NCBI RefSeq assembly: GCF_002197985.1
Contig: NZ_NBYK01000001.1
Location: 193,023 to 257,022 of the forward strand
DNA length: 64,000 nucleotides
Direction: 5' to 3'
From: Halopseudomonas aestusnigri
GTDB lineage: Bacteria > Pseudomonadota > Gammaproteobacteria > Pseudomonadales > Pseudomonadaceae
Shown: positions 5,274-64,000 of the stretch, one piece after another
Numbering within the stretch: position 1 is the first letter of the stretch
Layout of the letters: the number at the start of each line of letters is the position of its first letter
Notes under the pieces: generated by a model
What the model was told of the DNA's origin: nothing
Database searches by the model: none
What the model saw: the letters and a program-made list of their open reading frames with translations, nothing else
Translations under genes and position numbers: made by a program

Positions 5274-5813
5274 ATGGCCCTGCAGGCAACCCCTTACAAG
5301 GTTCAGCTGAATATCACCGACACCGACCTGGGTGTGTACGAGAGCGTGCGCATGACCGTTGCCCGTCACCCGTCGGAGACCGAAGAGCGGCTGGCGGTTC
5401 GCCTGTTGGCCTACGCCCTCTGGTACCACGAGCGTCTGACGTTCGGTCGCGGTCTGTCTGATGTTGATGAACCGGCGCTGTGGCTGAAAACCCTGGATGA
5501 CCGGGTCGAGCACTGGATTGAGGTTGGTCAACCCGATGCCGATCGCATGACCTGGTGTTCGCGCCGTGCCGAGAAGGTGTCGGTGCTGGTGTATGGCAAT
5601 ACTCGGGTATGGATCAGCAAGCAGCTGTCTGCAGTCGCCTCGCTGGCCAACCTGAATGTGGCGGCCCTGCCCGAGGAGCCTCTGCAGGCGCTGTCTACCG
5701 ATTTGCCGCGCAGCATCGACTGGGGTGTGATGATCAGCGATGGCGTACTTTACGTCAGCGATGGCGATCTGCAGCACGAGCTGCCGATCGAATGGTTGCA
5801 GGGCGAGCGTTGA
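5274..5813 (+). CDS. yaeQ: YaeQ family protein
   Basis: The 179-aa protein matches the YaeQ family: it begins MALQATPYK and carries RHPSETEERLAVRLLAYAL, ERLTFGRGL, EPALWLK and WIEVGQPD. YaeQ has a PD-(D/E)XK nuclease-like fold and was once reported to compensate for loss of RfaH; its true role is unknown. The ATG at 5274 gives the usual family N-terminus and length, while an upstream in-frame ATG at 5259 would add five residues. The stop lies 4 nt before the recJ start, so the two genes are very probably co-transcribed and translationally coupled. Confidence 0.9.
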   Translation: MALQATPYKVQLNITDTDLGVYESVRMTVARHPSETEERLAVRLLAYALWYHERLTFGRGLSDVDEPALWLKTLDDRVEHWIEVGQPDADRMTWCSRRAEKVSVLVYGNTRVWISKQLSAVASLANLNVAALPEEPLQALSTDLPRSIDWGVMISDGVLYVSDGDLQHELPIEWLQGER

Positions 5814-5817
5814 GCCG

Positions 5818-7548
5818 ATGCAGATAGAAACCCGCCCCTTACCGCCTGCGCTGCCCGCCCTGGGCAGTCTGCCGCCGTTGCTTACACGCCTGTATGCCGC
5901 CCGCGGCGTGCTGAACGAGGCAGAGCTGGACCGGAGGTTGCAGGCTCTGTTGCCGTTTAATGGCCTGCTTGGTATTGATCGGGCGGTCGCGGTGCTGGAG
6001 CAGGCGCTGCGTTCGCGCCAGTCGATCCTGATTGTGGGTGACTTCGACGCCGACGGCGCCACGGCCAGCAGCGTTGCCGTGCTGGCGCTGCGCATGCTGG
6101 GGGCGGCGCAGGTCGACTATCTGGTGCCCAACCGCTTCGAGTACGGCTATGGTCTGACGCCGGAAATTGTTGAGGTAGCGCTGACCCGCTCGCCGGACGT
6201 ACTGGTGACGGTCGACAATGGCATCTCCAGCATCGACGGCGTTGCCGCCGCCAAGGCGGCCGGGTTGCAGGTGGTGGTGACGGATCATCACTTGCCCGGC
6301 GAACAGCTGCCGGCAGCCGACGCCATCGTCAATCCGAGCCAGCCTGGCTGTGGCTTTGCCAGTAAGGCGATGGCCGGCGTCGGGGTGATTTTTTACGTCA
6401 TGCTGGCGCTGCGGGCGGCGCTGCGTGACAGTGGCTGGTTTGCCGAAACCGGGCGAGCGGAGCCGAACCTGGCCGAACTGCTGGATCTGGTGGCGCTTGG
6501 TACGGTGGCGGATGTGGTGCCGCTGGATGCCAATAACCGCATTCTGGTGCATCAGGGGCTGGCGCGCATTCGTGCCGGGCGCTGCCGCCCGGGGATTCTC
6601 GCGCTGCTGGAGGTGGCCGGGCGCCCGCGCGAGCGGCTGGTTTCGACCGATCTCGGCTTTATTGTTGGCCCGCGTCTGAACGCGGCCGGTCGCCTGGACG
6701 ACATGAGTCTGGGGATCGAATGCCTGCTGACCGATAGCGAGTCGCTGGCGCTGGATATGGCCCGTGAACTGGACGCACTCAACCGTGACCGCAAGGCAAT
6801 CGAGCGCGACATGCAGCAGCAGGCGCTGAAGACCCTGGAAAGCATGCAGCTGGACGAAACTGCGCTGCCGTTCGGGCTGTGTCTGTTCGATCCGGAATGG
6901 CATCAGGGGGTGATCGGCATTCTGGCCTCGCGCCTGAAGGACCGCTTTCATCGCCCGGTGATCGCCTTTGCCGATGCCGGCGATGGCATGGTCAAGGGCT
7001 CGGCACGTTCGGTCAGCGGGCTGCACATCCGTGATGCACTGGACGCGGTCGCGGCGCGTCACCCCGAGCTGATCAGCAAGTTTGGTGGCCACGCCATGGC
7101 GGCCGGATTGTCACTGCGTGAGGTGGATTTTCCGGCCTTTGCCGCGGCCTTTGATGCTGAAGTGCGACGTCAGCTGCAGGCTGAGGATCTGACCGGGCGG
7201 CTGCTCTCCGATGGCGAGCTGCAGGCAAGTGATCTGTCGATGGATATCGCCGCCTCCCTGCGCGAAGCCGGACCCTGGGGGCAGCATTTCCCCGAACCGC
7301 TGTTTCATGGCGAGTTTCAGGTGCTGCAGCAACGGCTGGTCGGCGAACGGCACCTCAAGCTGGTATTGCGCGTGCCGGGCGATGCGCAGCCTCTTGATGC
7401 GATTGCCTTCAACATTGACCCGCAGTGCTGGCCCAATGCATCCGTCAGTCGGGTGCTGCTGGCCTACACGCTGGATATCAATGAATTTCGCGGGCGTCAG
7501 AGCCTGCAACTGATGGTTCGTCATCTCGAACCGGTCAGCGACGTCTAG
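5818..7548 (+). CDS. recJ: single-stranded-DNA-specific exonuclease RecJ
   Basis: RecJ digests single-stranded DNA 5' to 3' in RecFOR recombination and mismatch repair. The 576-aa protein has the DHH phosphoesterase motifs in order: DFDADG (75-80), DNG (133-135) and DHH (156-158). The downstream DHHA1-type motifs GSARSVSGLHIRDAL and FGGHAMAAG and a C-terminal OB-type domain follow. The length fits the family (about 570-580 aa). The ATG at 5818 follows yaeQ by 4 nt; upstream in-frame codons run through yaeQ in another frame and are not family-like. recO, a partner in the same pathway, is elsewhere in this window. Confidence 0.96.
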   Translation: MQIETRPLPPALPALGSLPPLLTRLYAARGVLNEAELDRRLQALLPFNGLLGIDRAVAVLEQALRSRQSILIVGDFDADGATASSVAVLALRMLGAAQVDYLVPNRFEYGYGLTPEIVEVALTRSPDVLVTVDNGISSIDGVAAAKAAGLQVVVTDHHLPGEQLPAADAIVNPSQPGCGFASKAMAGVGVIFYVMLALRAALRDSGWFAETGRAEPNLAELLDLVALGTVADVVPLDANNRILVHQGLARIRAGRCRPGILALLEVAGRPRERLVSTDLGFIVGPRLNAAGRLDDMSLGIECLLTDSESLALDMARELDALNRDRKAIERDMQQQALKTLESMQLDETALPFGLCLFDPEWHQGVIGILASRLKDRFHRPVIAFADAGDGMVKGSARSVSGLHIRDALDAVAARHPELISKFGGHAMAAGLSLREVDFPAFAAAFDAEVRRQLQAEDLTGRLLSDGELQASDLSMDIAASLREAGPWGQHFPEPLFHGEFQVLQQRLVGERHLKLVLRVPGDAQPLDAIAFNIDPQCWPNASVSRVLLAYTLDINEFRGRQSLQLMVRHLEPVSDV

Positions 7549-7672
7549 ATTGACGTATTCAGGGGATTGACCTGCCGGGCGCTTTTGGTTTTCATGCAGT
7601 GATACAGAGATCACAAATGCATCACCATTCTTTTTGCCCGAGGATAAGTCGGGCGCGCTTGGGGGCAAGGAC

Positions 7673-9934
7673 GTGCCGGACCTGAAGCAGCAATTGCTGA
7701 ATATGCAGCGTCACCTTGGGCTGAACCCCAATGAGGTGAGGCAACGGCTGCGCCTGCTGCTGATTAATGACACCGGGTTCGACTGCCTGGGTGCCCACCT
7801 GCCGACGCTCGATCACTTGCATGCGGAATGCATCGAGGCGCTGCTCCAGCATCTGGAACAGTTTGACGAGCCGGCCAGGTTGCTTTCCCATCCCGGCCGC
7901 CTGACCGCTCTGAAGGGGCAGCAGCAAACCTACTTCCGGCAACTGCTGCGCGGCCCGTATGACCTGCAGTACGTGCGTCTGCGCCTGCTGGTGGGGCTGA
8001 CCCATGAGCGCCTGGGCGTGGACCTCAAGTGGTATCTGGCGGCCTTTCACTTCTATCTTGATTTCATGCATCGGGCCATTAACCGGCAGTGGCGTGATGA
8101 GCCGAAGCTGGCCGAACAGCTCTATGGCAGTCTGCTGAAGGTTGCCTTCTTTGATCTCAGTCTGACCGTCGATACCTACTCCAGTGCCGGCAAGATGGCG
8201 CTGCAGGCGAGTGAGGATCGCTACGCCCGCGCTGTTCAGGGTGCCAGTGACGGGCTCTGGGAGTGGCATGTCGAGGACGATCGGCTGCATCTATCGGAGC
8301 GCTGGCTGGCCATGCTCGGACTGGACGCGGGGCGTGCTCCACGTACCCTTGTCGATTGGGCGGCGTTGATTCCCGAGCTGCAGCGCGGCGGGTTCCTTGC
8401 GGCGGTACAGGCGCACCTTGATGGTCGTCAGCCGTATCTGCATGTCGAGTGCGAAATGCGTGACAGCTGGGGGCGCCTGCTCTGGGTAATGATCCGTGGC
8501 GTAGCGGCCACCGATCTGCACGGCGAGCACCTGCTGGCCGGGTCGCTGACCGATATCAGCCAGCGCAAGCAGACCGAGCAGGAGCTGGCGCACATGGTCT
8601 TGCACGACGAGCTGACCGGGTTACCCAACCGGCAGCAGGTCAGCCAGCTGCTGACCCAGGCGCTGCAGCGTCAGGCCAAGCCGGGGGCACGTCATGCGGC
8701 GGTGCTGTTTATCGACCTGGATCGCTTCAAGCTGATCAATGACAGCCTTGGACACCAGGTCGGTGATCAGGTGCTGATTCAGGTCGCCAAGCGGATTGAG
8801 CGCTGCCTGCGCCCGGGCGATCACCTGGCGCGCTTTGGTGGTGATGAATTTGTGGTGTTGCTGGATGACATGGCCGTGGCCGGCGATGCGGAAGTGGTGG
8901 CAAAGCGTATCATGCACGCATTGCAGTACCCGATCATCGCGGCCTCTCGGCGCTTGTCGGTCAGCGTCAGTATCGGCGTGGCTCCTCTCAAGGGCTATGG
9001 TGGCCAGCAGGATGTGCTTCGCGAGGCGGATCTTGCCCTGTATCGGGCCAAGGCGTTCGGCAAGTCGCAGCTGGCGCTCTACAGCGAGGCGCTGCAGGAA
9101 GAGGTGAATCAGCGCCTGAATCTTGAAAACGCACTCAGCGAGGCACTGGCGCAGCGTCAGTTCGAGCTGTTCTATCAGCCCATCGTGCAGGTTTCCGCCG
9201 GACGTGCCCATGCTGTCGGTGTTGAAGCATTGCTGCGCTGGCGGCAGGGCGCGCGGCTGGTGTCTCCGGACGAATTTATTCCGGTTCTGGAAGAGTCGGG
9301 CGAGATTGTCGAGGTGGGTGAATGGGTCCTGCAACAGGCTTGTGCCCAGGTGCGTCAGTGGCAGCAACAAGGGCTCAGCACCTTGCGCTGCTCGGTCAAC
9401 CTGTCCAGCCGGCAGTTGCAGGAACAGGGCTTCCCCAATCGGGTGGCGCAAATCCTGCGGGAAACCGGGTTGCCGCCGTCCAGCCTGGTGCTGGAAATCA
9501 CCGAGAGCCTGCTGATGCGCGACGTCCCCGATACCCTGGCCGCCCTGCGGGAGCTGGAGAGTATGGGGATCCGCATTGCGCTGGATGACTTTGGTACCGG
9601 TTTCTCTTCGCTCGGGTATCTGCACCGCTACCCGTTGCACATTATCAAGGTCGACAAGAGCTTTATTACCCGGGCGCCTGACGATGAGCGCCTCAAGGCG
9701 ATCAGCCGCGCCATCATCGGCCTGGGGCGAGGGCTGGATATGGATGTCATCGCCGAAGGTATCGAGACCCCGGAGCAGATGGATTTTCTGCACAACGAGG
9801 GCTGCAACTTCGTGCAGGGCTTCTGGTTCAGTCGGCCGCAGTCGGCGCTGGATATCTATCCGGTTCTGGAGCGGCTGTCGCTCAAGCCGCCTGTCGTCAA
9901 TGCGGCTGATCATCAGGCTGCTATAGTGCAGTAA
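7673..9934 (+). CDS. globin-coupled sensor: protoglobin-PAS-GGDEF-EAL
   Basis: Domains in order, counted from the GTG at 7673 (753 aa): a protoglobin-type sensor (about 1-160), PAS (about 185-300), GGDEF (about 305-470) and EAL (about 490-735). The globin region has the typical RGPYDLQYVRLRLLVGLTHERLG...KWY pattern, with His111 as the likely proximal heme ligand. GGDEF (389-393) is intact, with an RxxD inhibition site five residues before it. The EAL domain keeps EALLRW (EAL at 518-520), DDFGTG, KVDKSF and AEGIET, so it may both make and break cyclic-di-GMP. The distal-side tyrosine of globin sensors seems to be Leu. The start is uncertain: TTG at 7634 or ATG at 7703 are alternatives. Confidence 0.85.
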   Translation: MPDLKQQLLNMQRHLGLNPNEVRQRLRLLLINDTGFDCLGAHLPTLDHLHAECIEALLQHLEQFDEPARLLSHPGRLTALKGQQQTYFRQLLRGPYDLQYVRLRLLVGLTHERLGVDLKWYLAAFHFYLDFMHRAINRQWRDEPKLAEQLYGSLLKVAFFDLSLTVDTYSSAGKMALQASEDRYARAVQGASDGLWEWHVEDDRLHLSERWLAMLGLDAGRAPRTLVDWAALIPELQRGGFLAAVQAHLDGRQPYLHVECEMRDSWGRLLWVMIRGVAATDLHGEHLLAGSLTDISQRKQTEQELAHMVLHDELTGLPNRQQVSQLLTQALQRQAKPGARHAAVLFIDLDRFKLINDSLGHQVGDQVLIQVAKRIERCLRPGDHLARFGGDEFVVLLDDMAVAGDAEVVAKRIMHALQYPIIAASRRLSVSVSIGVAPLKGYGGQQDVLREADLALYRAKAFGKSQLALYSEALQEEVNQRLNLENALSEALAQRQFELFYQPIVQVSAGRAHAVGVEALLRWRQGARLVSPDEFIPVLEESGEIVEVGEWVLQQACAQVRQWQQQGLSTLRCSVNLSSRQLQEQGFPNRVAQILRETGLPPSSLVLEITESLLMRDVPDTLAALRELESMGIRIALDDFGTGFSSLGYLHRYPLHIIKVDKSFITRAPDDERLKAISRAIIGLGRGLDMDVIAEGIETPEQMDFLHNEGCNFVQGFWFSRPQSALDIYPVLERLSLKPPVVNAADHQAAIVQ

Positions 9935-58194: not shown

Positions 58195-59151
58195 TCAGAT
58201 TCGCGTGTCGGGCCAGCGTGCCCGTCGCCACGCCCGACGCTGCTTCTTGTTGAGGAAGGTCCAGGCCAGCAGCCGACTGCGCTTGCTGCCCTGACCCATG
58301 TCGATGATGCGTACGTCGGTGGCGCCGAGATCGCGCAACTGCTCGGGCAGTGCTTTCAGGCTGGATGCGCTGGCGACCAGCGTCGTGAACCAGAATACCT
58401 GCGACGCGCAGGTCCTGCTCTGCTCGGCCATGCGGCGAAGGAAGCCTGCCTCGCCGTCGGCGCAATACAGCTCGTTGGCGCGGCCGCCGAAATTGCGCCC
58501 GCCGGGTTGCTTGCCCAGGCCCTGCCACTTGCGCTCGTTGGCCTGCCGGGCCTCGTCGGCGCTGGCATAGAACGGCGGGTTGCACAGGGTGAAGTCGAAC
58601 TGCTCGTCGGCGCCGATGATGCCAGTGAAAATGCACGCGGGGTCCGCCTGCCGGCGCAGCTCGATCCGGGACTGCAGGGTCGGATTGGCCGCGAGGATCT
58701 GCGTGCCGTTGCGCAGGGCGTCGGCATCAATGTCGCTGCCGACGAATTGCCAGCCATATTCGGCGTTACCGATCAGGGGATAAATCAGGTTGGCACCGGT
58801 GCCAACATCCAGCCCGCGCAGGCTCGCGCCCTTGGGGATAACGCCATCGTGGCTGCTTGCAAGCAAATCCGCCAGGTGGTGGATAAGATCGGCGCGGCCG
58901 GGGATGGGCGGGCACAGGGCGTTGTCCGGGATCTGCCAGCCATTGATGTCGTACCAGTGCGTGAGCAGGGCACCGTTGAGGCAGCGCAGGGCGGCCGGAT
59001 CTGTAAAGTCGATGGTCGTCTGTCCATCCTTGCCCTGGCGGATAAAAGCCTTTAGTGGCGGGCACTTGCGGGCCAGAAGGGGGAAGTCGTAACGGCCCTG
59101 ATAACGGTTGCGTGGATGCAGTGCTGGTGGCTTGGATGAGCGGCGCGACAT
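58195..59151 (-). CDS. rlmF: 23S rRNA (adenine-1618-N6)-methyltransferase
   Basis: RlmF methylates A1618 of 23S rRNA. The 318-aa protein begins LHPRNRYQGRYDFPLL after a short basic tail and has the SAM motif LRGLDVGTGANLIYPLIG, and the catalytic tetrapeptide in LCNPPFYASADEA, typical of N6-adenine methyltransferases. CAGGAG lies 5 nt before the ATG at 59151; the in-frame ATG at 59184 would add 11 residues. It is separated from dapE by 132 nt that hold no gene. Confidence 0.93.
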   Translation of the reverse strand: MSRRSSKPPALHPRNRYQGRYDFPLLARKCPPLKAFIRQGKDGQTTIDFTDPAALRCLNGALLTHWYDINGWQIPDNALCPPIPGRADLIHHLADLLASSHDGVIPKGASLRGLDVGTGANLIYPLIGNAEYGWQFVGSDIDADALRNGTQILAANPTLQSRIELRRQADPACIFTGIIGADEQFDFTLCNPPFYASADEARQANERKWQGLGKQPGGRNFGGRANELYCADGEAGFLRRMAEQSRTCASQVFWFTTLVASASSLKALPEQLRDLGATDVRIIDMGQGSKRSRLLAWTFLNKKQRRAWRRARWPDTRI

Positions 59152-59309
59152 GTTGACTCCTGAGCTGGAGGGGGAGCTTCCCACGCCGATGTGGGGCTTG
59201 TCATCTGTTGTGCACAGAAGCTGGGGATGATGCTGTGGATAAGTTCAGGATATCCACCTCAACTCCAGCAGGGCTGGCGGCTGCGCAAGACTGGTTGTTT
59301 TCTGATCGA

Positions 59310-60389
59310 TTACAGCGCTTGCAGGAAAGCCTCCAGTGCGGCCAGCTCATCGCTGTCCAGCCCCAGCGGTTGCAGCAGCTCTGAGGTTTGTGGAAACAGC
59401 GGATCATTCTGTTGATGCGCTGCTGGATGCGGGCGGGGCATGCCCGCGTTGTACATGCGTAACACCCCGCTCAGGTTGGGGAACAGGCCGTTGTGCATCC
59501 AGGGGCCGGTCTGGCTGACCAGGCGTAGTGAGGGAGTTCGGAACTTGCCGACGTCGCTCGGATCAGCGGTTACCTGATAACGGCCGGTGTCTTCGTACTT
59601 GCGGCCGTAGTAGGTGAGGCCCAGATTGTGGAAGCGCTGGTCGGTCAGTGCTGCACCCTGATGGCAGTTAAGGCAGCGCGCCTTGGTGCGGAACAGATGT
59701 AGTCCCTGCAGTTGCTGGTCGCTCAGTGCCGTGGTGTCGCCACGCAGAAATCGATCCAGCGGACGGTCCCTGGGGATCAGGCTGCGCTGAAAATCGGCCA
59801 GGGCGCTGGCCAGCTGGCCGGAGTCGATGGGCGAGTGGTCGAACACGTCAGCAAAGCGCTGGCGGTAATCCGGATTCTGATTGAGCCGCTGCAGCACTTC
59901 GGGCAGCCGGGCGGCCATCTCATGCGGAGCCTCAATTGGCTTCAGCGCCTGATCCTCAAGGCTATCGCTGCGGCCGTCCCAGAACAGGTGCTCGATTAGC
60001 GCAGCGGCCACAACGCTTGGCGTATTGCGCGTACCGAGTTGTTGTTGATGCCCGGGAGAGACGCGCAGCCCGTCGGCAAATGCCTGCCGTGGATCGTGGC
60101 AACTGCTGCAGGCAATGTCGCGTGCCTGCGACAGCAGCGGCTCACTGAACAGGGCTGCGCCCAGCGCCACACGTGCAGGGTCCAGAGCAGGAAGGACCGG
60201 CAGCGGGGCCAGGTCCTGCTGTGGTTGCCCGGCGTCAATCTGCGCCGGTGGCCATTGCGCCTGCGGTGCGCTGTAGTGCGCTCGCAGACAGGCGGCTGTG
60301 CTCAGGTCGCAGGGTTCGGCGGCGCGGGACTGCCCGGAGCCCAGCACCGCAAGCAGGGCTGCGACAATGAAACCTGTGTGCATAAACAT
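59310..60389 (-). CDS. MauG/cytochrome c peroxidase-family di-heme protein
   Basis: The 359-aa protein has a signal peptide (about 1-23) and two c-type heme motifs, CSSCH (94-98) and CLNCH (239-243), as in di-heme cytochrome c peroxidases and MauG. The conserved LFWDGR (135-140) lies between them, and the N-terminal half contains an extra cysteine pair (Cys27, Cys34) before YSAPQAQWPPAQID. It should be periplasmic and either reduce peroxide or oxidise a partner. The start lies 3 nt after the receptor stop, so it is translated from the same transcript. The real electron partner is not visible. Confidence 0.88.
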   Translation of the reverse strand: MFMHTGFIVAALLAVLGSGQSRAAEPCDLSTAACLRAHYSAPQAQWPPAQIDAGQPQQDLAPLPVLPALDPARVALGAALFSEPLLSQARDIACSSCHDPRQAFADGLRVSPGHQQQLGTRNTPSVVAAALIEHLFWDGRSDSLEDQALKPIEAPHEMAARLPEVLQRLNQNPDYRQRFADVFDHSPIDSGQLASALADFQRSLIPRDRPLDRFLRGDTTALSDQQLQGLHLFRTKARCLNCHQGAALTDQRFHNLGLTYYGRKYEDTGRYQVTADPSDVGKFRTPSLRLVSQTGPWMHNGLFPNLSGVLRMYNAGMPRPHPAAHQQNDPLFPQTSELLQPLGLDSDELAALEAFLQAL

Positions 60390-60392
60390 GGC

Positions 60393-63197
60393 TCAGAATC
60401 GATAGCCCAGTTCCAGCCAGAATTGCCGTCCGGTTTCGTAGGTAACGGTGTTGTTGCTGGATACCTCTGCGGCGCTACGTTCGTTTAGCACGTTGAACAC
60501 GTCGACGTTGACGAACACCTCCTGCTGTTTTGGCAGATCCAGCGCCCATGCCAGACGCATATCCCAGGTCAGCGCGCCGCCGTAATCCTGTACTTCCCAG
60601 ACGTCGACAGAGACGCCCTGATAGTCGATGTTCTCGCCGGTATCGGCCACTTTGCTGTAGTCGGCACGGTAGCGGAAGAAGTTGCTCCAGATCAGGTTGG
60701 CCTGCGGTACCTGAGTGATGGTGGTCAGGCGTGCGGTCCAGGGGCGGGTAAAGTTATCGGCCGGGCGGTCAGCATAGCGGATGAACTTGCCCTGGTAGGA
60801 GATATACGGGTTCTCGAAGTACAGCTCGCCGGCGCTGTCATCGAAATAGGTGGGAGCGCTGCTCTTGCTGTTGGTCCAGTCCAGTGCCAACTGGCCGCTG
60901 GTGCTGGTGCCCCAAAGCGAATAGGCCCGCAGCGGCGTGACCATCAGCGTGAAGATGTCGGTTTCGCTTTTGCCTTCGTTAGCCCAAGTGGTGTAGTCGT
61001 CATCCAGCGTCGGATCGGTGGACGGCTCACCGAGGGTTTCGCCGCTGACCTGAACGACCTGATCGCGCCCCTTGCGGTTGACGTACTTGAGGCCGAACTC
61101 CAGATTATTCCAGCGCTGTACCACGCCGAGCATCAGCTCATCGTCGTAGGCAATATTCAGCTGACTGAAGCTGACCTGGTTTTGTGCCTGGGTGCCGACG
61201 GTCCAGTCGTCGTCAATCGACGCCCGGGTTTCGCTGTTGTAACGCAACTGATTGCGGCCTTCCTGCAGGCGCCAGGCGGCGATATTACGGCCGTAGTAGC
61301 GGTTGGCACCGGCCTGCAGCAGGGTATTACCGTTGGCGAACAGGTCGTACTCTGCGGCAAAGCGCGGAGCGATGGTGGTCTGGTCCATGTAGTTGTCGCT
61401 GTCTATCCGCACGCCCGGGCGGATGCGCAGCTGTTCGATCTGGATATCGTCTTCAAGCCAGGCGCCCCAGCTCAGGGTGGTAAAGCTGAAGTCGCCGGCG
61501 GCATATCGGGTACGGCGGCTCATGTACTGGCCGGCCCAGCCGTTGTTGGTCAGGCCCATGGAACAGGCGTCGACTTGCTGGCCGGCGCTGTTGGTACAGG
61601 TGTCGGTTTCGCGGGGGGTGACATAGGTACTGCTTTCGCTGGTGCGTTCGTAGAAGACCTCGTCTTCGCCGATCTCTAGGCCGCCGCGCAGACGGTGTTC
61701 GCTGGCCAGCCAGTTGATGGGTTTCGCTGCGGCGTCGAGCTTGTACTGCCAGCCGGACTGCTGCTGTTCGATATCGCCAAACTCGCCTTCCAGCGTGCTG
61801 TTTCCGGTGCCCCACCATTTGCTTTCCGAGGTGCGCCAGGCGTAGTAATCGTCAAAGTCCGGGTTGCGAGACTGCTCCAGCTGGTTCCAGCCCAGACTCT
61901 GGGTGAGGGTGAGGCTGTCTCCCTGCCAAACCCCTTCTAGGTTGAGTTGAGTGCCGCCAGACTCTATGTAGATGTCCGAGTTGGCAATGTTTGAGCGGAA
62001 GTACTGTGCCTCTTCTGGCGCATAGGCGACGCTGCCACGCAGGGTCAGGCGGTCGGAGGCATGCCAGATACCTTTGAGAAAGTAGTTGTCGATGCTGCGA
62101 GTCTGTTCTTCTTCGCGGTAGCCGTAGGTATCGACCAGGTGTGAGGAATAGAAGCTGAGCGGGATCTCCGAACGCTTCTGACTGAAGCTGGCGAGCAGGC
62201 CGAAGTCGTCGTTCAGGTAGCCTTCCAGAGTACCGCGCACGGTCGTTTTCTCGAACTCCGGCTGGCCGTCATCCCAGGAGGAGGCGTTTTCAACGTCGTC
62301 GGCTTCCACTGGGTCAATGTGGTATTCGGTCCACTCCGAGCGGGTGATCTGGTAGGACAGGCTGCCGGACAGCTCGCGCTTGGGGTCGCGGGTGCGGGCA
62401 TTGACTACGCCGCCGTTGAAACCGCCGTATTCGGCGGACACGTTGCTGTCGAGTACTTCGATCTCTTCCAGCAGGTCGGTATCCAGGGCCAAACCCTGGC
62501 TGCGACCGGGTACGGCAAACAGGCGATAAGGAGTGTCTTCTTGGGCCGGGTCGATGTCGTTGTTCATGTTCATACCATCGACGATAAAGGCGTTCTGATA
62601 GAACTGAGCACCGTTGATGCTGATATCGGCCGGGCTGATTTCCCCCGGAGTGCGGCTGCTTTGTTGGCTGTTGTCGAACTGCACCGCCGGGTTGGTTTTC
62701 AGCAGGCTGGTGATATCGCCATTGCCTGCAGGCAGCGCCTCGATTACTGAACGGGGCAAGGTGTTGCTGCTTTGGTAGGGGCTGGACGTGTGTTCGGCAA
62801 GGACCTGCAGGGTGGGCAGGCGAACGTCACCGGCGGCGTCGGATTGAATCAGTTGTTGCGGAAGAATAATGACAGTGTCGTCATCGCTGAGTTGCCAGCT
62901 CAGGCCACTGCCTTCCAGCAGCATGCCAAGCACAGTCAGAACCGACAGCTGCCCCTGAATGGCTGGCGCCTGATGATCAGCCAGCAATTCCGACGGCGCG
63001 CTGACCTGCAGGCCAGACTGGTTGCTAAACGCCAGTAAAGCAGTTGCCAGAGGTTGTGCCGGGATGTCGTAGATGTAAAAGCTTATTTGCTTGTCGCTGG
63101 CAGTGTTGGCCTGACTGGCAAGCGGGATAAGTCCCAGAGCAATCGCGCACGTAAGTGCGCAAGGGCGGAGTGACCGCAGGGTGGGTTGGTTGGGCAC
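60393..63197 (-). CDS. STN-containing TonB-dependent receptor (FecA-type transducer)
   Basis: The 934-aa outer-membrane protein has a signal peptide (about 1-30), an STN signalling domain (about 38-113: FYIYDIPAQPLATALLAF and on), and a likely TonB box (LPTLQVLAE, about 127-135). A plug follows (about 145-290), then a barrel ending in aromatic YRF. An STN domain means it can signal to a FecR anti-sigma, which is present just upstream. The substrate is unknown. Two cysteines in one loop (DTCTNSAGQQVDACSMG) may form a disulfide. AGGGAG lies 8 nt before the GTG at 63197; a GTG at 63203 is too close. Confidence 0.9.
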   Translation of the reverse strand: MPNQPTLRSLRPCALTCAIALGLIPLASQANTASDKQISFYIYDIPAQPLATALLAFSNQSGLQVSAPSELLADHQAPAIQGQLSVLTVLGMLLEGSGLSWQLSDDDTVIILPQQLIQSDAAGDVRLPTLQVLAEHTSSPYQSSNTLPRSVIEALPAGNGDITSLLKTNPAVQFDNSQQSSRTPGEISPADISINGAQFYQNAFIVDGMNMNNDIDPAQEDTPYRLFAVPGRSQGLALDTDLLEEIEVLDSNVSAEYGGFNGGVVNARTRDPKRELSGSLSYQITRSEWTEYHIDPVEADDVENASSWDDGQPEFEKTTVRGTLEGYLNDDFGLLASFSQKRSEIPLSFYSSHLVDTYGYREEEQTRSIDNYFLKGIWHASDRLTLRGSVAYAPEEAQYFRSNIANSDIYIESGGTQLNLEGVWQGDSLTLTQSLGWNQLEQSRNPDFDDYYAWRTSESKWWGTGNSTLEGEFGDIEQQQSGWQYKLDAAAKPINWLASEHRLRGGLEIGEDEVFYERTSESSTYVTPRETDTCTNSAGQQVDACSMGLTNNGWAGQYMSRRTRYAAGDFSFTTLSWGAWLEDDIQIEQLRIRPGVRIDSDNYMDQTTIAPRFAAEYDLFANGNTLLQAGANRYYGRNIAAWRLQEGRNQLRYNSETRASIDDDWTVGTQAQNQVSFSQLNIAYDDELMLGVVQRWNNLEFGLKYVNRKGRDQVVQVSGETLGEPSTDPTLDDDYTTWANEGKSETDIFTLMVTPLRAYSLWGTSTSGQLALDWTNSKSSAPTYFDDSAGELYFENPYISYQGKFIRYADRPADNFTRPWTARLTTITQVPQANLIWSNFFRYRADYSKVADTGENIDYQGVSVDVWEVQDYGGALTWDMRLAWALDLPKQQEVFVNVDVFNVLNERSAAEVSSNNTVTYETGRQFWLELGYRF

Positions 63198-63225
63198 AGA
63201 CACGGCTCCCTGTTGAATTTTGAAT

Positions 63226-63240
63226 TGATAATGATTCGCG
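63226..63240. promoter_or_regulatory. partial Fur-box-like site
   Basis: TGATAATGATTCGCG holds a perfect left half (TGATAAT) of the Fur 7-1-7 consensus; the right half keeps only ATT. It lies 29 nt before the receptor start, where iron control is common in FecIRA-type systems. The weak half makes this a candidate only. Confidence 0.35.
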
Positions 63241-63293
63241 TTTGCAGGGGTGTGACGTGTGAGTGCCGCGTTTTTTCAGCAATGCGGGGAAAA

Positions 63294-64000
63294 TTAGTCG
63301 CTGATGATGGTCAACCAGGGTGAAACGCTGTTGATGCGGGCATTGTAGGGGCCTAAAACGGCACGTAAGGCTGCATCCGGAGTGTCTAGTTTGAAGCGGC
63401 CTGTGACCCGCTTCTGGGCAAGCTCCGGGCTGCGCAGCCACAGGTATCCGGATCGATATCGGCCCAGTTCCACCAGCACGCTGGTCAGAGGTTGGTCCTG
63501 AACTGTCAGGTAACCGGTTTGCCACTCGGCAATGTGTGTGCTGTCTACCGCGCTGATGCAGTCGTTCCGGCAGTCATTGGCTGCAAGCTGCTGGCCTGCA
63601 TTGAGCACAACCTCTGGACCGTCCGGGTAGGCCACCCGGACTTGCCCCTCGCGAACCTGAACAGCATTGCGCCTGCTATCGGTATCTACCAGAAAGGCGG
63701 TGCCGGTGACGGTGACGGTCAGATCATCCGTGAACACTTGAAACGGGCGGCTGGCGTCTGGGCTGACTTGCAGGAACACTCGGCCCTTGTGCAGATCGAG
63801 ATGGCGGCTGTCGTTGGCCATGCTGACATCCAGCTCGGTGCCAGCATCCATAAATACGCGGGTGCCGTCGGTCAGAGTAATCTGCTCGGGTTGGTTATCG
63901 CTGCGATATTGCGGGTGCTTGTGCAGCAGACTATGACCGATGACTGTGGACAGCAGAACGCTGGCCGCAAGTGCTGACGGATAACGCCAGCGGCGTTGTC
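63294..64000 (-). CDS. fecR: FecR-family anti-sigma / signal transducer (5' end off window)
   Basis: The reading frame is open to the right edge, so the start lies outside. The 235 residues seen include a membrane helix (YPSALAASVLLSTVIGHSL), a FecR domain (ITLTDGTRVFMDAGTEL, then LDLHKGRVFLQV, VTVTGTAFLVD, VQVREGQVRV), and a C-terminal STN/DUF4974-like part (GYLTVQDQPLTSVLVELGRY onward). FecR binds the STN domain of the receptor in the periplasm and controls an ECF sigma factor, which is expected beyond the edge. It is 96 nt upstream of the receptor. An odd CRNDC cysteine pair lies in the middle. Confidence 0.88.
   Translation of the reverse strand, partial: QRRWRYPSALAASVLLSTVIGHSLLHKHPQYRSDNQPEQITLTDGTRVFMDAGTELDVSMANDSRHLDLHKGRVFLQVSPDASRPFQVFTDDLTVTVTGTAFLVDTDSRRNAVQVREGQVRVAYPDGPEVVLNAGQQLAANDCRNDCISAVDSTHIAEWQTGYLTVQDQPLTSVLVELGRYRSGYLWLRSPELAQKRVTGRFKLDTPDAALRAVLGPYNARINSVSPWLTIISD

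Follow-up and report, generated by a model that had tools for sequence, protein, structure and literature searches.

Organization of the operon

The window analysed here, a stretch of 64,000 nucleotides, carries at its right edge three minus-strand genes: a gene for a di-haem c-type enzyme (59310-60389, 359 amino acids), one for a TonB-dependent receptor with an STN domain and a FusA/YddB-type barrel (60393-63203, 936 amino acids), and one for a FecR-like anti-sigma regulator (63294..64000), which is cut by the edge. Sequence past position 64000 supplied the complete fecR-like gene, which extends to window-equivalent position 64211 (305 amino acids, with DUF4880 and FecR domains). It also revealed, outside the window and on the same strand, a predicted ECF sigma gene (fecI, window-equivalent 64204-64707, probable ATG at 64707), in which sigma-70 regions 2 and 4 are recognised and which shares 8 bases with fecR. 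The gene order is therefore fecI-fecR-receptor-enzyme, in a single minus-strand operon where ECF sigma factor, FecR and STN receptor stand consecutively, as in FecIRA-type systems. Exactly 3 nt (GCC) separate the receptor stop from the enzyme ATG, and the Pfam matches are all above cut-off (CCP_MauG 166 bits, STN 34, Plug 34, and FecR 68.6 for a cut-off of 24).

An earlier note on this DNA had taken the three co-directional genes, with their 3-nt receptor-to-enzyme spacing, for one unit, and had suspected an ECF sigma gene just beyond the edge; coordinates and domains agree with the former claim, and the extension recovered the sigma gene, overlapping fecR. A further gene of the same strand (58195-59184) lies 3' of the enzyme gene after a spacer of 125 nt, and a terminator scan of the operon strand found none.

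A predicted Fur site upstream of fecI

The sequence TGATAATAATTATCA, a perfect 7-1-7 Fur palindrome, lies over a sigma-70-like promoter, 41 nt 5' of the ATG at which fecI probably starts. It is the single match in the genome (3.83 Mb), and its 13-base core, with at most one mismatch, occurs at one place in the genome. Scoring upstream regions by their best match to a 19-base Fur consensus, we found a Fur-like match of at least 13/19 before 25 of 47 related operons (window excluded), versus 34 of 399 gene starts taken from these loci as controls. The corresponding Fisher P-value (1e-12) serves as a guide only, given the relatedness of the loci and the presence of uncertain gene calls among the controls. 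From the predicted Fur box over the promoter we infer that the operon is probably Fur-regulated, and this lone perfect palindrome before the sigma gene points to iron rather than copper as the metal involved. The gap between fecR and the receptor gene (63204-63293) contains AATCATTATCAATT, which resembles part of a Fur site.

A receptor of the FusA/YddB family

Residues 145-935 of the receptor match 4zgv (listed as a ferredoxin receptor, and which we take to be FusA) with an E-value of 2e-96, and the receptor also matches 6ofr with an E-value of 2e-78; a profile built from 23 receptor sequences brings these values to 2e-174 and 4e-158, respectively. Structure 6ofr is E. coli YddB (762 of 790 YddB residues match, E-value 0). 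Sixteen other solved sequences, among them HasR, FecA, FoxA, CntO, FpvA, FemA and PupB, align with the N-terminal, STN-holding part only. As judged from these alignments, the receptor is a member of the FusA/YddB family, its barrel matching no further solved receptor. A FecA-type barrel was also considered, and is ruled out because the homology to FecA is confined to the STN part; among NCBIfam models, FecA and siderophore-receptor models do match the receptor, every one of them far under its cut-off. At the class level, a search with this receptor (E-value of 1e-50 or less) reached 3 of 370 genomes, the genome under study being one of them.

A di-haem enzyme with the axial tyrosine of MauG and MbnH

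The enzyme contains two CxxCH motifs and an N-terminus that resembles a signal peptide by eye. Its Tyr313 aligns with position 294 of the solved MauG (for MauG's remaining compared residues, the numbering is presumed). In the window and the best 80 of 359 loci retained in our wider search (described below), W137, Q147, E157 and Y313 are present in 81 of 81 sequences and P151 in 78 of 81. Seven paralogues, labelled CCP-like in this analysis, keep the W, Q, P and E positions in all cases and have a gap in the tyrosine column, also in all cases. As W, Q, P and E are common to both types, the tyrosine alone separates the enzyme from the CCP-like type. The same axial tyrosine is found in the one MauG, both MbnH and all 12 other Tyr-type enzymes that we aligned, and is thus not specific to the receptor-linked clade.

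Could the enzyme be a plain hydrogen-peroxide scavenger, guarding the cell during iron intake? In favour are its CCP_MauG family membership, the fact that cytochrome c peroxidases are the best matches of the full-length protein among solved structures, and the W, Q and E residues that it has in common with the CCP-like paralogues. However, the MauG tyrosine that is invariant in the 81 sequences is replaced by a gap in the seven paralogues, and PMC7567364 describes the axial tyrosine as kept in all MauGs, with Met or His in its place in cytochrome c peroxidases. Moreover, Actinobacillus represses a cytochrome c peroxidase in iron shortage, as reported in PMC3091793. We regard the scavenger as very unlikely. 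As to class, Tyr313 at the ligand position and the gap in 7 of 7 CCP-like paralogues disfavour a canonical bacterial cytochrome c peroxidase. PMC6405878 gives an account of the family's sequence network and of the bis-Fe(IV) state.

We derived an N-terminal signature, Y...W[PQK], which occurs in 80 of 81 sequences (window plus best 80 of 359). All three additional receptor-linked enzymes carry it too, and none of 22 other di-haem enzymes does (L151 left out). The figure of 80 of 81 is descriptive, since this relaxed motif was fitted on those very sequences and the 22 other di-haem enzymes are its sole control; a strict first form of the motif was present in 34 of 81 only. In an enzyme tree computed without the N-terminal region, 84 receptor-clade sequences, 80 of them picked by similarity to the enzyme, fall on one side of a branch with an SH-aLRT of 94, just below the 95 mark, the outgroup being 22 sequences (MauG, MbnH, other Tyr-type and CCP-like). 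The curated models for MauG (TIGR03791, 189.2 bits for a cut-off of 443.85) and MbnH (TIGR04039, 191.1 bits for a cut-off of 362.85) score the enzyme well below their limits. Taken at the level of sequence, the enzyme is a di-haem c-type protein in a clade of its own, with a MauG/MbnH-type axial tyrosine.

The earlier note had likened the operon to part of a methanobactin cluster. The order sigma factor, anti-sigma factor, receptor, di-haem enzyme is indeed identical to that of a methanobactin-type copper uptake set, in which MbnIRT is accompanied by MbnH; the tyrosine di-haem enzyme and a locus combining a TonB receptor with a sigma/anti-sigma pair are common to both. MbnH and MbnP are defined by TIGR04039 and TIGR04052 in PMC3621798. 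The window enzyme scores 191 of the 363 bits required of MbnH, the genome yields no match to MbnP (TIGR04052, which was detected in the positive control G036, of the same genus), the receptor is of the FusA type by comparison with solved receptors, and the Fur palindrome before the sigma gene indicates iron. These differences rule out the methanobactin reading as a description of this locus, and we give it almost no chance. What stood of the note's interpretation is the single operon, the ECF sigma factor, and metal uptake with an oxidative enzyme of the MauG/MbnH kind. In G036 a genuine MbnP-MbnH pair is encoded at C26:356219-358122 (L143, L184), both proteins scoring above the curated cut-offs.

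Such a pair in another genome of the genus, together with the MauG-type axial tyrosine, would also suit a different role, in which the enzyme matures a partner, either the receptor or a carrier in the periplasm, through Trp or Tyr modification, like MauG and MbnH, and leaves the cargo untouched. The operon shows no small gene for such a partner, however, and the exchange with a protease described in the next section suits cargo processing better. Maturation of a partner thus appears quite unlikely.

Enzyme and protease alternate in the same slot

To follow the gene pair among relatives we sampled 398 genomes from the family. Receptors of this kind occur at no fewer than 49 places in 45 genomes (E-value of 1e-50 or less, best two candidates per genome). 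Close homologues of the enzyme (E-value of 1e-60 or less) number 22, in 22 genomes, and all 22 adjoin a receptor of the window's family: 19 adjoin receptors among the 49 listed and three (G002:C13, G016 and G029) adjoin receptors found at a weaker limit. This adjacency rules out a chance linkage. The earlier note had raised the case of genes scattered in related genomes; the pair turned out to be linked in each of the 22.

What follows the receptor when the enzyme does not? Among the 49 listed places, the next gene is the enzyme in 19 and directly an M16 protease in 24; an SbmA/YddA-like ABC gene and then an M16 gene follow in two (G694, G697), and one lies at a contig end (G519). Of the 24 direct M16 loci, none has the enzyme; an ABC gene follows the protease in 23, and fecI/fecR lie upstream in 23. 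Conversely, no M16 gene was found in the fetched stretch of the 22 enzyme loci, one of which (L191, G532) ends with its contig right after the enzyme. The M16 protease of G002:C2, from the same genus, matches 6b03/6brs (listed as putative zinc protease, presumably FusC) over its full length with an E-value of 2e-159, and PqqL with an E-value of 2e-39; the other 23 direct M16 proteases are 42-48% identical to it, and it alone was compared with solved structures. The operon itself contains no FusC-type M16 gene, and elsewhere in the genome a FusC-like query gave three M16 matches, weak and partial.

With the enzyme at 19 and M16 at 26 of the 49 listed places, and never both where the contig shows, the enzyme occupies the slot of a cargo-processing protease. 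The order fecI-fecR-receptor-FusC-like protease-ABC is thus sister to that of the window's operon. Three operons of this type, each with a different processing gene, are present in genome G002. When a shorter region 5' of fecI was scored, a Fur match of at least 13 was reached in 21 of 23 protease-slot loci and in 25 of 40 enzyme-slot loci, where some contigs are doubled because they came from two collections; these counts have no length-matched control.

Two of the 49 listed places, L130 (G002:C45, 6051-7567) and L178 (G549), show fecI-fecR-receptor and, next in order, an orphan lipoprotein (about 206 amino acids, no Pfam match) and a rhodanese; the receptor gene of L130 has an in-frame stop. 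Lipoprotein and rhodanese would make up a third kind of processing slot. One more of the 49, L131 (G041:C3, 4650-5630), has, after a receptor of the window's family, a haem-binding lipoprotein of the ChaN type (PF04187), a hint that the cargo of some members may bear haem.

A receptor tree, obtained by a quick method with SH-aLRT support only, places the 24 protease-slot receptors in one clade (SH-aLRT 100) and the window within a clade of 34 enzyme-slot receptors (SH-aLRT 96), beside Pseudomonas fluvialis; further enzyme and protease rows sit on long branches where their placement is unsure. At least three changes between enzyme and protease are needed on this tree. Since the protease rows form one clade and the minimum is three changes, the exchange is mostly one switch with few independent repeats.

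Is the cargo necessarily a protein? FecI/FecR/STN control is typical for siderophore and citrate receptors. A small ferric chelate or peptide might be taken up, the enzyme breaking or altering the ligand by oxidation and so freeing the iron; the presence of FecI, FecR and STN in the operon and the sub-threshold FecA and siderophore-receptor matches would be consistent with this. Among solved receptors, however, the barrel matches FusA and YddB only, and the M16 protease of the sister operons, FusC-like in the one case compared, fits a protein cargo. We consider uptake of a chelate or peptide unlikely.

The enzyme clade beyond the family

The wider set consists of the best 80 of 359 confirmed stretches in genome_contigs. 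Among these 80, a FusA-type receptor adjoins the enzyme in 48, another TonB receptor lies downstream in two (L080, tested, and L091, by cluster), and no receptor was seen or the contig ended in five (L084, L103, L108, L110 and L116). The other 25 (within L078-L125) have a Bacteroidetes order, TonB receptor-DUF4876 protein-DUF6850 protein-enzyme, assigned by sequence clusters with Pfam run on the genes of L089, L113 and L082 only. An example of this operon is L089 (1819-9050); DUF4876 and DUF6850 have no assigned function in Pfam, and the receptor of L089 matched none of the solved structures at an E-value of 0.01 or less. In Bacteroides thetaiotaomicron, the genes BT3625-BT3633, encoding DUF4876 proteins and a TonB receptor, are reported in PMC10434189 to rise 36.7- to 128-fold in iron shortage; their likeness to the Bacteroidetes enzyme loci rests on DUF4876 and the TonB receptor. 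In Helicobacter (L085, L086 and L093, about 5350-9100), receptor and enzyme form a pair with an almost zero intergenic gap. A single enzyme clade extends to Helicobacter and Bacteroidetes.

Enzyme and M16 protease occur together in Azonexus and Candidatus Accumulibacter, with a receptor in L076, L077, L090, L100 and L102 and on a contig without one in L116. The M16 protein of L090, the only one tested, resembles other zinc proteases (4nnz, E-value 5e-29) more closely than PqqL (4e-21) or 6b03 (2e-13) and is not clearly of the FusC type. Since these loci hold both, the enzyme is not always a substitute for the protease, and a universal mutual exclusion of the two is ruled out.

Do the signalling genes travel with the receptor? 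Taking STN length from the start of the BLAST match on the receptor rather than from Pfam, 23 of the 48 receptor-enzyme loci (from the best 80 of 359) have both an STN-length receptor and fecI/fecR, 23 have neither, and two have the STN length alone (L051 and L062, the contig of the latter being too short to judge fecI/fecR). STN-length receptors and FecI/FecR go together. Within the family receptor set, L155, L179 and L181 show an STN-length receptor with no fecI/fecR in the upstream stretch searched. Three receptor-enzyme pairs, L136, L137 and L138 (records L047 Pseudomonas saudimassiliensis, L048 Halopseudomonas pertucinogena and L055 Halopseudomonas pelagia), are without fecI/fecR and have a receptor too short for an STN domain.

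A possible oxidative route to the iron of imported proteins

The explanation we favour, to which we give a little less than an even chance, is a protein piracy of the Fus kind under Fur and FecI/FecR control, in which a periplasmic enzyme of the MauG/MbnH type does the cargo processing of the FusC-type protease. Iron shortage would lift Fur repression of fecI-fecR, the Fur site being observed and the regulation presumed. Receptor-bound cargo would then signal from STN to FecR and on to FecI, which would transcribe the receptor and enzyme genes; the parts are all present, and the signalling is modelled on FecIRA. By analogy with FusA, the receptor would import a small iron- or haem-containing protein, whole or in part, into the periplasm. 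There the enzyme, with hydrogen peroxide and high-valent haems, may oxidise the cargo at a distance, as the slot exchange and the chemistry of MauG suggest. The cargo or its Fe-S or haem centre would be destabilised, and the iron freed for ordinary uptake across the inner membrane. Counting against this explanation, in 25 of the best 80 of 359 loci the enzyme travels with a non-FusA Bacteroidetes receptor and two DUF proteins. Also weighing against it are the occurrence of the tyrosine outside this clade, the retention of W, Q and E in the CCP-like paralogues, the loci that hold both enzyme and protease, the small number of independent exchanges on the receptor tree, and the reduction proposed by Grinter et al. 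(2019).

A broader proposition, possible but doubtful, is that there exists a second route to the iron of imported proteins, by MauG-type oxidation at a distance and not by FusC cutting, and that the Y...W[PQK] clade serves TonB uptake systems of Proteobacteria, Helicobacter and Bacteroidetes as their processing unit. If true, this would provide a widespread clade of di-haem enzymes with a function, and would account for an iron-starved cell spending two haems on such an enzyme. Because protease and enzyme are swapped in one slot, with the same receptor family and regulators, the way in which such systems release iron can be tested by removal of a single gene. Iron release of the Fus kind without a protease has one printed suggestion (Grinter 2019), of which we found no test in the literature.

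Comparison with known systems

Grinter et al. (2019, PMC6793856) already reported that FusA homologues without FusC can have a cytochrome c peroxidase gene as neighbour, and suggested that the enzyme reduces the cargo and thereby releases its cofactor. This is the one paper stating the combination of receptor and di-haem enzyme in the literature we searched, subscription papers lying outside that search. Its coverage of the subject consists of two sentences in one Results section plus one on the Achromobacter cluster; its main text has no mention of FecR, a sigma factor or MauG, and FecI/FecR may appear in its supplement. As presented in that main text, the loci are of the same kind as ours, with a FusA-type receptor, a gene of the di-haem peroxidase family and no FusC. 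They differ in that the enzyme is called a cytochrome c peroxidase and a reduction is proposed, whereas the MauG-type ligand argues for an oxidative enzyme. New here are the Tyr-type enzyme, the FecI-FecR-STN and Fur control, the slot exchange, and the clade reaching Helicobacter and Bacteroidetes.

Compared with MauG itself, the window enzyme shares the axial tyrosine and the W, Q, P and E positions, but it reaches 189 of the 444 bits needed for TIGR03791, belongs to its own clade and lies in a locus without mau genes. With the Fus system of Pectobacterium and YddA-YddB-PqqL of E. coli (in K-12, pqqL, yddB and yddA lie side by side), the operon has in common the receptor barrel family, a processing gene right after the receptor, and iron control. 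Unlike them, it has a di-haem enzyme where the M16 protease stands, has no TonB-like or ABC gene, and possesses FecI/FecR and an STN domain. We therefore describe it as a putative Fus-like iron uptake operon whose processing slot is taken by a Tyr-type di-haem enzyme, probably a variant of the kind already sketched in print.
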